Positions 8,202 through 45,600 of a DNA stretch of 64,000 nt are shown one piece after another. Positions within the stretch are counted from its first letter, which is position 1, and every line of letters starts with the position of its first letter. The notes beneath the pieces are model-generated. The model saw only the letters and a program-made list of their open reading frames with translations. It did not search any database and was not told where the DNA came from. This DNA is from Actinobaculum sp. 313 (GTDB lineage Bacteria > Actinomycetota > Actinomycetes > Actinomycetales > Actinomycetaceae), in the NCBI RefSeq assembly GCF_003073475.1, contig NZ_CP029033.1:1364001-1428000 (forward strand), written 5' to 3'. Made by a program: the position numbers and the translations under genes.

Positions 8202-8652
8202 GCATGTCTGGGGTGGCGCGCGTGGGTGGAATGCACGCCTGTGCTCAAGCGTCACGCGTACCGCCAGGGATCGCGCCTGTGCTCGCACCTGACGCGCATG
8301 CCCACAGGTTTGCCAGCCGGTGAGTCTGGCATCTTCGTTCCCTTCCCCTCTCTCGGTTCTCCGGGTTTTCCGCAGTTTTCGCGAATAACCCGAAGTCTTG
8401 GCGAAAACCCGAAGATTCGGGCGTCGACGCCGAAGAGGCAGGCCTGGAATCACGACAGGGAGCGCGGAGACCTGCGCGCATCCGTTGGCGCCGCAGAGAC
8501 GGCGGAATGCATGGGCGACCGGCGTCATGTCGGGTGGATGTCCGCATTGTGACCGGCTGTGCGGGTCGTCGTGGGATCTTGTATGGTCATCGGTGGCAAT
8601 TCACAGGGTTGCCGGATAGGCGGCTCCGTCTAAACCAGGGAGGAGAGAAGAC
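8202..8652. other. long 5' intergenic region before the methionine operon
   Basis: I see no convincing gene here; open frames on both strands are Arg/Pro-rich and lack ribosome binding sites. Notable repeats are an 8-bp inverted repeat GTTTTCGC (8375-8382) / GCGAAAAC (8401-8408) and a near-direct repeat GCGAATAACCCGAAG (8381-8395) / GCGAAAACCCGAAG (8401-8414). A promoter for the leader ORF must lie at about 8530-8630, but no strong hexamer pair stands out. Confidence 0.4.
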
Positions 8653-8727
8653 ATGACACCTATGCACATGAGCATGTGTATGTGTTGCCGTAGAGCTCTG
8701 CCTCCGCCAGGGTGCGCTGCAGCATAG
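8653..8727 (+). CDS. Met/Cys-rich leader peptide (24 codons), candidate attenuator sensor
   Basis: The ORF reads MTPMHMSMCMCC, then RRALPPPGCAAA and a stop. Five of the first ten codons are ATG. Two more of the first twelve-codon block are the adjacent Cys codons 11-12, and another Cys is at codon 9. A strong ribosome binding site, GGGAGGAGAG (8638-8647), stands 5 bases before the ATG. Immediately downstream is a perfect intrinsic terminator (8748-8780), then an operon for methionine uptake. A short, well-initiated ORF enriched for the end product of the genes behind it, followed by a terminator, is the architecture of classical ribosome-mediated attenuation. I do not recognise the peptide from any described family. 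The sensing role is inference; the ORF, its site and the terminator are directly visible. Confidence 0.65.
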   Translation: MTPMHMSMCMCCRRALPPPGCAAA

Positions 8728-8780
8728 CCACAGCTTGCCAGACTTGAGGAGAGCAGAGCCAATGCCTGCTCTCCTTTTTT
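8695..8780 (+). promoter_or_regulatory. transcription attenuator with competing antiterminator
   Basis: Terminator: GGAGAGCAG (8748-8756) pairs perfectly with CTGCTCTCC (8766-8774) over a 9-base loop, followed by TTTTTT (8775-8780). Antiterminator: GCTCTGC (8695-8701) can pair with GCAGAGC (8753-8759) and CTCC (8702-8705) with GGAG (8748-8751), leaving A8752 bulged. The two pairings share the 5' terminator arm, so they exclude each other. The upstream partner lies inside the leader ORF, 7-20 bases past the Met/Cys codons. A ribosome stalled early on the Met codons would leave it free and favour read-through into the M20-metNIQ operon. Confidence 0.65.
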
Positions 8781-8889
8781 GTGTCTGGGGCAGGCGTCAG
8801 GTTTTATGCCCGACGCAGACCTCAGGCGCTGCAAGTAAGGCGGATAGGCGCCGGTCAGTGTTTAGCCGAACGCGATAGGGAAGAGGAAG

Positions 8890-10068
8890 ATGAGCGAGTT
8901 ACGCAGGCAGCTATTGGGATACGCGGACCATATGACGCAGCTGCGCCGGACGTTTCATGAACACCCGGAACGGGGACTCGAAGAGTATTGGACTGCCGGG
9001 GCCATCGAGTCGGAGCTCGATGAGCTCGGTATCGAGCATCGACGCGTCGGTGCTACAGGCGTCCTTGGAACTATCAGGGGAGCGAATGAGGGACCGACGG
9101 TGGCCTTGCGTGCCGATATCGATGGTTTGCCCGTCCAAGAGCTCAACGATGTGCCCTATCGCTCCCTGAACGATGGCGTCATGCATGCCTGCGGTCATGA
9201 TAGTCACATTGCCGCGCTGCTCGGAGCGGCCTGGGCCCTAATGTCCAGACGCCAGGACTTCGCCGGAGAGATTCGCCTGATCTTCCAGCCTGCCGAGGAG
9301 ATCGGACGCGGCGCCGAAGACTTCGTCGCCGCGGGGGTTCTCTCCGATGTGGTGCGGGTACTCGGACTACATGCGGCATCCGATCTGCCCACCGGCACTA
9401 TAGGGATTTCGCGGGGCGTGAGCTTGGCGGCGGTGGATCTTTTCGATATCGACATCCAAGGCAAAGGGGCACACGTGTCACGTCCACACCTGGGCGCGGA
9501 CGCACTCTACGTGGCCAGTCAGATCGTCGTCGGCCTGCAAGCGGCCGTCTCGCGGCTCTCCGATCCGCGTGTGCCGTACGTCGTTGGCATTGGAACTCTC
9601 AGCGCAGGAACCACTTATAACGCCGTGCCTGAAACGGCACATATTAGCGGTACAACACGAACTCTATCGGCCGAGCAGCGCGCTCGAGCACGAGCCGACG
9701 TGACCCGCATCAGCAAATTGTGCGCTGAGGCGTACGGTGCGCGGGCAGAGGTGACATGGACCGATATTACGCCGGCAGTTGTCAACCCTGCCGAACTGTG
9801 CGCTGAGGTGGCCGAGTCGGCCAACAGGCTGGGCGGTATCCGCGTTGTGACCGGTGAGAGCGTTTCGCTGGGAGGCGACAATTTCGCGGAACTGCAGGAG
9901 CAGGTTCCCGGTGTTTACGTCTATCTGGGGACGGGGGATCCCAACCGGCCTGAGACGCAGAACTCACATCACAACGGAAACTTCGATATCGACGAGGCCG
10001 CACTGCCGATAGGTGCCGCCCTATACGCGCAATACGCCCTCGACGCGCTGGCAGGGGTGGCGCGTTGA
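8890..10068 (+). CDS. M20-family metallo-amidohydrolase (N-acyl amino acid hydrolase type)
   Basis: This 392-residue enzyme belongs to the M20D group (hippurate / N-acyl-L-amino-acid / IAA-amino-acid hydrolases), cytoplasmic dizinc or dimanganese enzymes. Visible metal motifs are MHACGHDSHIA, the catalytic Glu pair in FQPAEEIGRGAEDF, LGLHA and, near the end, NSHHNGNFDID. A dimerisation domain occupies the middle. ATG 8890 follows GGGAAGAGGAAG. The stop overlaps the TTG start of metN by four bases (TTGA), so the enzyme is translationally coupled to the methionine transporter. A plausible job is to free methionine, or another sulfur amino acid, from N-acylated forms brought in by MetNIQ. The true substrate is not shown by sequence. 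Expression is probably controlled by the leader attenuator upstream. Confidence 0.88.
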   Translation: MSELRRQLLGYADHMTQLRRTFHEHPERGLEEYWTAGAIESELDELGIEHRRVGATGVLGTIRGANEGPTVALRADIDGLPVQELNDVPYRSLNDGVMHACGHDSHIAALLGAAWALMSRRQDFAGEIRLIFQPAEEIGRGAEDFVAAGVLSDVVRVLGLHAASDLPTGTIGISRGVSLAAVDLFDIDIQGKGAHVSRPHLGADALYVASQIVVGLQAAVSRLSDPRVPYVVGIGTLSAGTTYNAVPETAHISGTTRTLSAEQRARARADVTRISKLCAEAYGARAEVTWTDITPAVVNPAELCAEVAESANRLGGIRVVTGESVSLGGDNFAELQEQVPGVYVYLGTGDPNRPETQNSHHNGNFDIDEAALPIGAALYAQYALDALAGVAR

Positions 10069-11090
10069 TTCGACTAGTCAATGTTTCAAAACGCTTCAAC
10101 GGAGCCAACGGGACGGTCGACGCCCTACAAGATGTATCGCTGCATGTGGAGCAAGGCGACATTTACGGCATTATCGGTTTTTCCGGAGCCGGAAAGTCCA
10201 CCCTACTTCGTATGGTGAATATGTTGGAGAGCCCCGATTCAGGATCGGTGTTCGTCGGTGGCCGCGAACTAACGGCGCTTTCCAATCGCGAGCTGCGTGA
10301 TGTCCGGCGATCAATTGGAATGGTGTTCCAACAGTTCAACTTACTGGAGACGCAGTCCGTATACCGCAATATCGCACTACCGCTTATGCTCGACCACGCC
10401 TCACGTGCGCATATTGAGCAGCGAGTTGCCGAGGTACTGCGAATCGTCGAGCTTGAGGACAAGAAGGATGCATACGTGTCTGAACTGTCGGGAGGCCAGA
10501 AGCAGCGCGTTGGCATTGCCCGAGCTTTGGCCACGAATCCCGACATTCTTTTGTGCGACGAGGCCACCAGCGCTCTCGATCCGAAAACGACGGAGTCAAT
10601 CCTCGCTCTTCTCAAACGCATCAACCACGAAATGGGGGTGACGATATTGCTCATCACCCACCAGATGCGTGTCATCCAACAGATATGCACAAAAGTCGGA
10701 GTGATGGAAGAAGGCCGAATCGTCGAATCCGGGCGTGTGCTCGATGTATTCGGAAGTCCGCAGCAGGCAATCACACAGGAGTTTGTGCGCACGGTTATCA
10801 ATGACAGCATTCCGCCGAGCATGCGAGCTCTGCTGGAGACCGACAATCGTAACTTTGTTGTTGATCGGCTACGTTTCGTCGGTGAATCTGTGCGTCGCCC
10901 GGTCCTCGCCACGGTCGGACGAGTCGAGGGTCTCGAGCTGAATATTCTCGGCGCGACGGTCGAAGAACTTGAAGACACCCCGATGTGCCTGTATCTGGTG
11001 CAGCTGATCGGAGATCAGCAGGCGATAAGCGCCGCCGAATCGGTGATAGATGCCGAAGGAGTAACAAGGGAGAGGGTTGCACTATCGTGA
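10065..11090 (+). CDS. metN: methionine ABC transporter ATP-binding protein
   Basis: MetN is the ATPase of the MetNIQ importer for methionine and derivatives. It shows Walker A (GFSGAGKST), the ABC signature LSGGQKQRVGIARAL and Walker B with the catalytic Glu (ILLCDEATSALD). The H-loop His is in LLITHQMRV. The last 90 residues form a C-terminal regulatory (C2/NIL) domain, which in the E. coli homologue binds methionine and inhibits transport. The length, 341 residues, is typical. The start is TTG at 10065, overlapping the stop of the amidohydrolase. Its own stop overlaps the GTG of metI (GTGA). Confidence 0.95.
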   Translation: MIRLVNVSKRFNGANGTVDALQDVSLHVEQGDIYGIIGFSGAGKSTLLRMVNMLESPDSGSVFVGGRELTALSNRELRDVRRSIGMVFQQFNLLETQSVYRNIALPLMLDHASRAHIEQRVAEVLRIVELEDKKDAYVSELSGGQKQRVGIARALATNPDILLCDEATSALDPKTTESILALLKRINHEMGVTILLITHQMRVIQQICTKVGVMEEGRIVESGRVLDVFGSPQQAITQEFVRTVINDSIPPSMRALLETDNRNFVVDRLRFVGESVRRPVLATVGRVEGLELNILGATVEELEDTPMCLYLVQLIGDQQAISAAESVIDAEGVTRERVALS

Positions 11091-11865
11091 GTAATGAAAT
11101 CTTCGGAATTACGACTGAGAAACTACTGCTCGCCGCCCACCAAACCGTGTACATGCTCGGTTGGGGAATACTGATCGGTGGAATCATCGGGGTCTTGCTG
11201 GCACTGACTCTGGTCTTGACGCGGCGGGGCGGACTCTTGGAGAACCGGGTCGTCTACACGGTTTTGAATGTTGTCGTCAACATCGTGCGGTCGATTCCGT
11301 TCATTATCCTGCTGGTGGCGATTATTCCCTTCACACGCTTCATCGCCGGCACATCGGTGGGTTCGCGCGCTGCTCTCGTACCGCTGATCATTTACATCAG
11401 TCCTTTTATCGCTCGTCTGGTTGAATCCAGCCTGTTGGAGGTCTCCGCCGGAGTCGTCGAAGCGGCGCAGGCGATGGGAGCCTCCACCTTTCAAATCATC
11501 CGCTACTTTCTCCTGCCGGAGACCTATGGCTCAATAGTGCTTTCCCTGACAACGGGGACTATCGGGCTGCTCGGCGCCACGGCGATGACCGGTTATGCCG
11601 GGGTGGAGGCGTCGGCGACCTGGCGCTGACTTATGGTCGAGAGCGGTTCAACACACCGCTGATGGTCTTCACCGTCATAATTCTCGTTGTCTTCGTGCAG
11701 CTGCTACAGACTGCCGGTAATACTCTGTCCCGCCGTCTACGTGAGCCACATCGTTCGCGTCGTCGGCCTCGATCGGGGTCAGGACAGCGAAACGATGCGT
11801 CGCTCGACGCGCAAAGAGAAGCCCTGGCGCAGCAAGAAGCAGTGCCGGGGGAGCGATTGTCTTGA
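11087..11865 (+). CDS. metI: methionine ABC transporter permease (one-base frameshift)
   Basis: MetI is the membrane permease of MetNIQ, with about five transmembrane helices. The reading frame from GTG 11087 runs through the EAA-type coupling segment EAAQAMGASTFQIIRYFLLPE (central residues) and breaks at 11629. Restoring one G in GGGG at 11600-11603 joins it to the next frame, which supplies the conserved GGGVGDLALTYGYQ-type end (here GDLALTYGRERFNTP) and the last membrane helix, stopping at 11865. The corrected protein has 259 residues, with a hydrophilic tail of about 40 residues beyond the last helix, longer than usual. The start overlaps the metN stop by four bases. As read, the permease would lack its last helix, so the shift is probably a sequence error. 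Confidence 0.9.
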
Positions 11866-11900
11866 CTTCCAATACGACACAAATCCGGAAGGAAACATCA

Positions 11901-12743
11901 ATGAGAAGAAGAACGATAAGCCTGGTAGCCCTCTCGGCGGTGACGCTTACAATGTCTGCCTGCGCGGAGCCTGGCGGTACTACGCAACAGGAGAGCAACA
12001 GTGGAAGCGACAAGACGACCATCATCTACGCGAAGTCACAGGGACCGTACACCGAGCTCTTTGAGGACGCGATTGTGCCGATTCTCGAGGATGAGGGCTA
12101 TACCGTCGAAGGGGTTGACTTCTCAGACCTGCTAACCGCAGATATTGCTCTGAATGACGGTGAAGTGGACGTGAACGTGGAGCAGCACACCGCGTACATC
12201 GAGGACTTCAACGCCAACTACGACGCCGACTTGGTTCCAATCAGTGCGATCCCCACGGTGCCGGCAGGCATTTACTCCTCGACACACTCCACGCTGGACG
12301 AGATGGAGGACGGAGCATCGGTCGCGGTCCCGAACGATGCATCGAATACGGCCCGAGCCTATCTGCTCCTACAGAAGATTGGGTGGATCGAAGTGAACCC
12401 TGACGCTGACGTTGCACAGCTGACTCAGGATGACATTACGGCCAATCCGCATAATCTGGAATTCACCGAGATGAAATCGCTGACGATCCCGCCGGCAATG
12501 GATGACTTCGACTATGTGGTTATCACGGGTTCGATCGTCTACAACGCGAATATCGATCCGACGACGGCGCTGGCCACCGAGGATATTCAAGATCACCTGG
12601 TCTTGCAGGTGACAGTGAAGGCAGAGAACGCAGACGCACCGTGGGCGCAGGCCATCGTTGATGCCTATCAATCGGACGAGTTCAAGGAATACATGGCCAA
12701 TGACGACTCCGGTCTTTGGTGGATACCACCCGAGCTGCAGTAA
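11901..12743 (+). CDS. metQ: methionine-binding lipoprotein
   Basis: MetQ is the NlpA-family substrate-binding lipoprotein of MetNIQ, anchored outside the membrane. The N-terminus MRRRTISLVALSAVTL then TMSAC is a lipoprotein signal peptide; Cys20 is the expected lipidation site, for Lgt. The mature part matches MetQ: TTIIYAKSQGPYTELFE, DVNVEQHTAYIEDFN and PNDASNTARAYLLLQ. ATG 11901 is chosen because GGAAGGAAAC lies just before it and because it gives a proper signal peptide. An alternative TTG at 11862, overlapping the metI stop, would add 13 hydrophilic residues in front. A perfect hairpin follows the gene, marking the end of the operon. Confidence 0.93.
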   Translation: MRRRTISLVALSAVTLTMSACAEPGGTTQQESNSGSDKTTIIYAKSQGPYTELFEDAIVPILEDEGYTVEGVDFSDLLTADIALNDGEVDVNVEQHTAYIEDFNANYDADLVPISAIPTVPAGIYSSTHSTLDEMEDGASVAVPNDASNTARAYLLLQKIGWIEVNPDADVAQLTQDDITANPHNLEFTEMKSLTIPPAMDDFDYVVITGSIVYNANIDPTTALATEDIQDHLVLQVTVKAENADAPWAQAIVDAYQSDEFKEYMANDDSGLWWIPPELQ

Positions 12744-45377: not shown

Positions 45378-45489
45378 TCGCCGGATACCCGGCTTTGCGT
45401 GTGGCGGCGCTCCTACCAGCAACGAGACTGCATTTTGAATTGGTCTGTGTACCATACTGTGCAATAATCGCCCTGAACACAAACGTGCT

Positions 45490-45600
45490 CCGGGGTCAGT
45501 GAAAATCTGAACCGGCGGTGATAGTCCGCGACCCGCGCAAGCGGCTGACAGGGTGGAATCCCCTGACCGACGGTTAAAGTCCGGATGGGAGGCGCACGAA
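45490..45600 (+). promoter_or_regulatory. FMN riboswitch (RFN element)
   Basis: The conserved blocks of the FMN aptamer appear in order: GGGGTCAGTGAAAATCTGAA, then ACCGGCGGTGATAGTCCGCG, a variable stem, CTGACAGGGTGGAATCCCCT, then GACCGACGGTTAAAGTCCG and GATGGGAG. This agrees with the RFN consensus around the central multi-helix junction. The switch ends about 70 bases before the ATG of ribX. No T-tract terminator is seen in between, so control is probably by hiding the start region, or by termination of a kind not visible to me. Confidence 0.93.

Follow-up and report, generated by a model that had tools for sequence, protein, structure and literature searches.

A Met/Cys-codon leader with an intrinsic terminator and a competing antiterminator upstream of an M20-metNIQ-type operon: a probable attenuator responding to sulfur amino acid supply

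The locus and its operon

The window (the whole stretch of DNA analysed, 64,000 nucleotides) comes from a 2.77 Mb genome of an Actinomycetaceae-like family and carries a short leader open reading frame (ORF), an intrinsic terminator and an operon encoding an M20 family amidohydrolase together with the components of a MetNIQ-type transporter. Conservation was assessed against G001, the MAG 'Actinomycetaceae bacterium isolate SIG35', which is the sole congener in the genome set and is referred to below as the sister species. The features are as follows.

8582-8587, + strand: candidate -10 element TATGGT of a putative promoter, proposed from the sequence and its alignment with the sister species
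8638-8645, + strand: Shine-Dalgarno (SD) sequence GGGAGGAG, arm 1, identical in the sister species and also able to pair with 8697-8705
8653-8727, + strand: leader ORF MTPMHMSMCMCCRRALPPPGCAAA with its stop codon, 24 codons, conserved in the sister species
8674-8688, + strand: putative regulatory codons Met8-Cys9-Met10-Cys11-Cys12, proposed from the occlusion model below; the tandem Cys also occurs in the Georgenia leader
8695-8705, + strand: 5′ arm of the antiterminator, arm 2, inside the leader ORF and forming 11 pairs with 8748-8759
8704-8712, + strand: Pro18-Pro19-Gly20, a candidate pause site; Pro-Pro-Gly also lies past the arm in both Georgenia-group leaders
8748-8759, + strand: 3′ arm of the antiterminator, arm 3, overlapping the 5′ arm of the terminator
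8748-8780, + strand: intrinsic terminator with a 9-bp stem and a U tract; conservation collapses just beyond it
8890-10068, + strand: M20 family amidohydrolase gene, which opens the operon (TIGR01891, 351 bits)
10065-11090, + strand: metN-type ABC ATPase (TIGR02314, 372 bits, under the cut-off of 499.7)
11087-11629, + strand: metI-type permease, frameshifted, with a frame of 180 aa; intact in the sister species
11901-12743, + strand: metQ-type substrate-binding lipoprotein (MetQ/NlpA family models, under cut-off)

Because MetN and MetQ fall under the NCBIfam cut-offs for the canonical methionine transporter, 'metNIQ-type' is the safe name for this operon. The metI frameshift lies near 11605 (within 11087-11870): the 180-aa frame ends GVEASATWR before its stop codon, and the conserved C-terminal sequence GDLALTYGRERFNTPLMVF... 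is found in another frame. Since the gene is intact in the sister species, the frameshift is either a sequencing error or the mark of a decaying operon, and the operon may thus be decaying in this genome.

The candidate -10 element reads TAGGGT in the sister species, and both versions fit the actinobacterial TAnnnT. Upstream of this candidate promoter, a block at 8547-8581 differs by one base in the sister species, though its flanks diverge, and is a possible operator or -35 region. A conserved upstream block would also suit a ligand-binding riboswitch or a protein-binding leader within which the ORF is fortuitous, a reading that we consider very improbable. Rfam covariance models run over 8400-8960 returned no family at the gathering score, the weak matches being of unrelated types, and neither the T-box nor the SAM riboswitch model matched at the leader; a riboswitch was rejected on this ground, and conservation moreover spans the SD, the ORF and the terminator. 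Elsewhere in the window, an FMN riboswitch (RF00050, 92.9 bits) lies at 45482-45600.

Composition and alternative pairings of the leader

The strong SD is located 8-15 nt 5′ of the leader ATG. Within the ORF, ATG occupies codons 1, 4, 6, 8 and 10, and Cys codons 9, 11, 12 and 21, Met and Cys together accounting for 8 of the 23 codons beyond the start (35%). This is the highest Met+Cys fraction among the 146 SD-preceded short ORFs of the window, the runner-up reaching 18%. No equivalent arose when the window was dinucleotide-shuffled 40 times, and chance composition was rejected on this basis.

The terminator stem, formed by GGAGAGCAG (8748-8756) and CTGCTCTCC (8766-8774), is a perfect 9-bp helix followed by T at 8775-8780. 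In the antiterminator, GCTCTGC and CTCC (8695-8705) face GGAG-A-GCAGAGC (8748-8759) in 11 pairs with one bulged A, and the two structures are mutually exclusive, the terminator 5′ arm being common to both. Only 2 of 300 leader shuffles matched the real pairing with that arm. The initial annotation had described the 24-codon ORF with its strong ribosome binding site, the perfect terminator with six T and the second pairing that excludes it, all of which were recovered here; its count of five ATG among the first ten codons and Cys at 9, 11 and 12 also stands, with Cys21 to be added. It had further overlooked a third exclusive pairing, revealed by folding, between the leader SD and 8697-8705, which makes the layout the classical 1:2, 2:3 and 3:4 set. 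One result counts against the attenuator reading: in the equilibrium fold with no ribosome, arms 2 and 3 also pair until the 3′ arm of the terminator has been made.

Short peptides rich in Met and Cys can bind copper, and it could be supposed that the ORF encodes a functional, for example metal-binding, peptide and that the hairpin is the ordinary terminator of a small gene. Little credence can be given to this idea, as the peptides of the different lineages considered below share Met/Cys codons and no alignable sequence, and as it assigns no role either to the site before sulfur amino acid transporters or to the pairing between ORF and terminator.

Conservation in the sister species

The leader of the sister species, MTPMYMSMCMCCRRTLPPPGCAAA, is identical at 71 of 75 nt (95%) and its terminator at 32 of 33, compared with third codon positions of the M20 gene that differ in 178 of 392 cases (45%) and with bases beyond the U tract that match at 47 of 95. 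The probability of at most 2 changed third positions out of 25 is P=6e-5. The four changes are synonymous at Pro3 and Cys21 and replace His5 with Tyr and Ala15 with Thr, every Met and Cys codon being retained. Ten of the 11 antiterminator pairs are also kept, the sole arm change, G to A at 8695, costing the terminal pair. The Met-rich ORF and both stems sought in relatives are thus present in the sister species; the covariation that had been proposed alongside them was not seen in the antiterminator or terminator stems with this one close relative compared, and, as the leader is kept in only one close relative, the conservation of the Met codons is weakly tested.

A peptide-similarity search for the leader across the family returned the sister species as the only significant match, the remainder being noise; a match in the same genome (G000, at 1524336) was dropped because it has no leader-like context.

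Modelling of ribosome stalling

The effect of a stalled ribosome was modelled by treating it as an unpaired footprint on an equilibrium fold. With leading edges from P+11 to P+14, Cys11 in the A site outperforms every other position (P(terminator) 0.04-0.07), followed by Met10 (0.22-0.52); stalls at Met8 and Cys9 leave P(terminator) at about 0.6-0.9, those at Met4 and Met6 have little effect (0.73-1.0), and from Arg13 onward the value is about 1. The permissive A-site codons are therefore 8-11, plus 12 with the shortest footprint. A shorter 5′ end with the edge at P+14 gives the same order more weakly (Cys11 0.26, Met10 0.69). With edges at P+15/16, Met10 becomes the best stall, so methionine may also be a signal. 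In the sister species, Cys11 is best or near-best and the effect is modest (0.42-0.75).

These values bear on the earlier proposal that ribosomes stall at Met codons 4-8, that stalling at Cys 11-12 would cover the antiterminator arm and that methionine, not cysteine, is consequently the signal. In the occlusion model Cys11 does not cover the arm and is favourable, and Met4 and Met6 do little; the exclusion of cysteine is further contradicted by the Georgenia and clostridial leaders described below.

A complete attenuator would also require arm 2 to be masked under amino acid sufficiency. The stop codon, rightly identified at the outset as a weak point, lies 20 nt past the arm, so that a ribosome waiting there would cover arm 2 poorly. 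Translation is known to be slow at Pro-Pro-Gly. A ribosome holding Pro19 in its P site and Gly20 in its A site has a footprint over the whole of arm 2, and one at Pro14/Gly15 likewise covers the arm in Georgenia. On sequence grounds, Pro-Pro-Gly may be a more plausible place than the stop codon for the ribosome to park.

Orthologous M20-metNIQ operons and other cysteine leaders

The closest orthologous operons were located via M20, MetN and MetI. In Georgenia satyanarayanai (MetN 68% identical), the leader MAQTCCRCPGFVPPGPPHAA (MAQTCCRCPG...) has a tandem Cys and no internal Met, and it is accompanied by a terminator, CGAGGCACG/CGTGCCTCG with T7, and a 9-pair antiterminator, GCTTCGTTC/GAACGAGGC. 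Another species of the Georgenia group carries the leader MAQTCCLFPGFVPPGLPHAA. Relative to the window, the leaders of this group keep the tandem Cys and the Pro-Pro-Gly just past the arm and lack the internal Met. Leaders of clostridial relatives, MDRRMLCCCCGG... and VTNRKMMCCCSK..., contain CCCC or MMCCC; clostridial orthologs show the leaders MDRRMLCCCCGGVFAAPFL and VTNRKMMCCCSKRVFAAPTL, and an M20-metNIQ-patB operon is preceded by ...MEMNMMCTMCMMCDCM.... A Lachnospiraceae MAG (L228:2586-7737) has a 46-codon Met/Cys leader and then M20-metNIQ-patB, patB encoding a C-S lyase.

The orthologous operons of two genomes, G017 and G121, have no such leader, and a CymR-like Rrf2 gene lies near both (L087:3424-5009 and L088:6833-7258), with a cystathionine-lyase-type gene also near the G017 operon (L087); the regulator has possibly been swapped for the same transporter. 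Nor was a leader found at the Enteractinococcus orthologs. With the Georgenia leader devoid of internal Met and the clostridial orthologs containing Cys, the constant residue of the M20-metNIQ group is Cys.

A search of the same genome for tandem-Cys leaders with AGGAG found a second one, MMHATRRPSFCMCCLCL with its stop codon, before cysK-cysE (L222:1697-1800; G000:C1:1918196 onward). The CMCC of this leader is replaced by CACC in the sister species, and Met is thus dispensable there. In another genus of the family, a Cys leader, MTTKAMREMSCSCCTC with its stop codon, precedes a cysK-like gene (G041; L076:1811-1861).

Taken together, the Georgenia ortholog, the clostridial CCCC and MMCCC, the CACC of the cysK-cysE leader and the CymR-like, cystathionine-lyase-type and PatB genes that tie the operon group to cysteine could be accommodated by an attenuator responding to cysteine alone, with Cys11-12 (and 9) as the sensor, the Met codons incidental and the whole a terminator-bearing relative of the mycobacterial polycysteine leaders. 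We nevertheless regard this as unlikely, given that chance is not expected to place four internal Met codons at alternate positions, all of which the sister species retains, that Met10 is also a permissive stall and that other metNIQ leaders are dominated by Met, one of them (in G039) without any Cys.

Recurrence before other metNIQ operons

Met-rich or Met/Cys-rich leaders also stand before metNIQ operons in other Actinomycetaceae and in Clostridia. The Met-dominated leader MARALAMMTAMSMYMANMRMRSELAPEDL in G039 comes with a terminator and with an antiterminator of 11 pairs and a single bulge; MQHTLPLAMPLALASAMMMPGMLMCAHPASVKHSRM occupies the equivalent place in G002, and two related Met-dominated leaders precede metNIQ in genus g40. 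Clostridial metNIQ operons have the Met-dominated leaders MAKIIRKMMMAEMRMCCMCMMMCAQKCGSPSFTAI and kin, MMRMMCMCRMCEMCRMSMSRHTVGSPCTHI and MQKTVNTMMMNMQTRCCMMTRHDMVYFPAPRKR, and in one member of family f8 metQ-metNI is preceded by ...MCVCMCRKGACQRMC. G106 and G107 have Met-rich leaders before metNIQ with no convincing intrinsic terminator, and their support is weaker for that reason.

Among SD-preceded short ORFs of the same DNA, those with at least 25% Met+Cys make up 15 of 166 upstream of metNIQ operons and 17 of 2528 elsewhere (Fisher 8.5e-11), a P value that is not literal, as the enriched loci fall into about ten lineages, related loci are included and the counts were taken after the first cases had been seen. 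Of the individual residues, Met alone is enriched upstream of metNIQ operons. Complementarity between leader and terminator 5′ arm, tested over 10 lineages with one case each, gives a combined P=4e-5; taken singly, the antiterminators of Georgenia and of the Ruminococcaceae do not outperform shuffles. A survey of about 60 metNIQ operons, nearly every one from the family, showed that most canonical ones lack a Met/Cys leader and that several have a SAM riboswitch, and an order-level search found no leader at most of the nearest MetN relatives.

In this genome a SAM riboswitch (RF00162, 45.0 bits, L340:3096-3180, - strand) lies ahead of the canonical metNIQ operon, as in the sister species (46.5 bits, L341:2948-3032, - strand). 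With none at the present leader, the two paralogous transporters appear to answer different sulfur signals.

The five ATG in ten codons, the Met-dominated leaders before metNIQ in G039, G002, G106, G107 and clostridia and the enrichment of Met as a class could together favour the initial annotation's proposal of an attenuator responding to methionine alone through stalls at Met4-Met8. This seems quite improbable: the model favours Cys11, not Met4 or Met6, the orthologous Georgenia leader has no internal Met and, in this genome, canonical methionine uptake already has a control of its own, the SAM riboswitch. Both residues probably act, cysteine being the better supported by comparison. Graded separately, cysteine is a likely signal and methionine a slightly less likely one, and the strict claim that both are signals falls a little short of an even call.

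Proposed mechanism and significance

The locus combines an SD-led ORF, Met/Cys codons, a terminator and an exclusive antiterminator, and codons 8-11 are placed where a stall would free arm 2, subject to the footprint assumed. It is thus probably a ribosome-mediated transcription attenuator responsive to sulfur amino acid supply; leader translation, stalling, the Met/Cys response and the Pro-Pro-Gly pause are elements that we infer. RNA polymerase would transcribe the leader with a ribosome translating alongside. When charged tRNA-Cys, and probably tRNA-Met too, is short, the ribosome would stall at about codons 8-11 (Met-Cys-Met-Cys), leaving arm 2 free to pair with arm 3, so that no terminator would form and M20-metNIQ would be transcribed. 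With ample supplies of both, the ribosome would advance until it covers arm 2, with a possible pause at Pro-Pro-Gly, and would let the terminator form. Without translation, the leader SD could capture arm 2.

The sensing of methionine supply is usually ascribed to SAM riboswitches, T-boxes or repressors. By counting Met and Cys codons, a leader would respond directly to charged Met-tRNA and Cys-tRNA and could distinguish a shortage of sulfur amino acids from a shortage of SAM. Both kinds of sensor seem to be present in this genome, each on one of two paralogous transporters. Such leaders may also help predict the cargo of MetNIQ-type transporters, Cys-containing leaders marking the M20-metNIQ group and Met-dominated ones other metNIQ operons. 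The locus looks like part of a recurrent, little-described group of sulfur amino acid attenuators on metNIQ-type operons. More tentatively, this group may constitute a so far undescribed family in Actinomycetes and Clostridia, whose Met and/or Cys leaders replace SAM riboswitches or T-boxes, with Met-dominated leaders on canonical metNIQ, Cys-containing ones on M20-metNIQ and, in this species, a leader that senses both Met and Cys and in which Pro-Pro-Gly acts as a brake, holding the ribosome on the antiterminator arm.

Comparison with known systems

In the literature searched, whose coverage is incomplete, no description was found of a Met/Cys attenuator that switches between terminator and antiterminator, nor of any such attenuator in Clostridia. 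The leader shares with trp/his-type attenuators a leader peptide, regulatory codons and the 1:2, 2:3 and 3:4 pairings, whereas Met/Cys would be sensed here and the Pro-Pro-Gly motif, not the stop codon, may mask arm 2. The SAM riboswitch of the canonical metNIQ, absent from the window leader, controls a paralogous transporter and binds SAM directly.

Cysteine leaders offer closer parallels. The mycobacterial polycysteine short ORFs, which are cysteine-responsive (Canestrari et al. 2020, as cited in PMC9094748 and PMC9031893), likewise place sulfur genes of an actinobacterium under the control of leader Cys codons; as these citing papers describe them, they are leaderless with contiguous Cys, whereas the window ORF is SD-led, its Cys codons, Cys11-Cys12 being contiguous, lie mid-ORF mixed with Met and a terminator is present. 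Such leaders were first predicted before cys operons of Mycobacterium and others (PMC1262725; Seliverstov et al. 2005), where the Cys run is near the stop codon and no obvious terminators were seen. The uORFC-8-2 motif before cysS in Rhodobacterales (PMC8632094), for which ribosome-mediated attenuation is predicted, shares a uORF with tandem Cys and an intrinsic terminator, and differs in phylum, in gene and in using Cys only.

The nearest precedent is the leader metL, MSTTSDRTPATEATTTPGARCMCRRMCAF (...RCMCRRMCAF), predicted before metNIQ in Streptomyces lividans TK24 (PMC8079986, 2021). The initial annotation's statement that no Met-codon attenuator of this design was known therefore overstated the novelty. 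As in the window, where the M20 gene intervenes, metL is a short Met/Cys leader just before metNIQ and a predicted attenuator; it is, however, reported as leaderless, with no clear intrinsic terminator and no antiterminator described, and was read as Met (and Thr) dependent, in a prediction made without a regulation experiment. The window leader, by comparison, is SD-led, has a perfect terminator with U6 and an explicit antiterminator, and has the M20 gene first in its operon, and it thus varies a theme already known from S. lividans.
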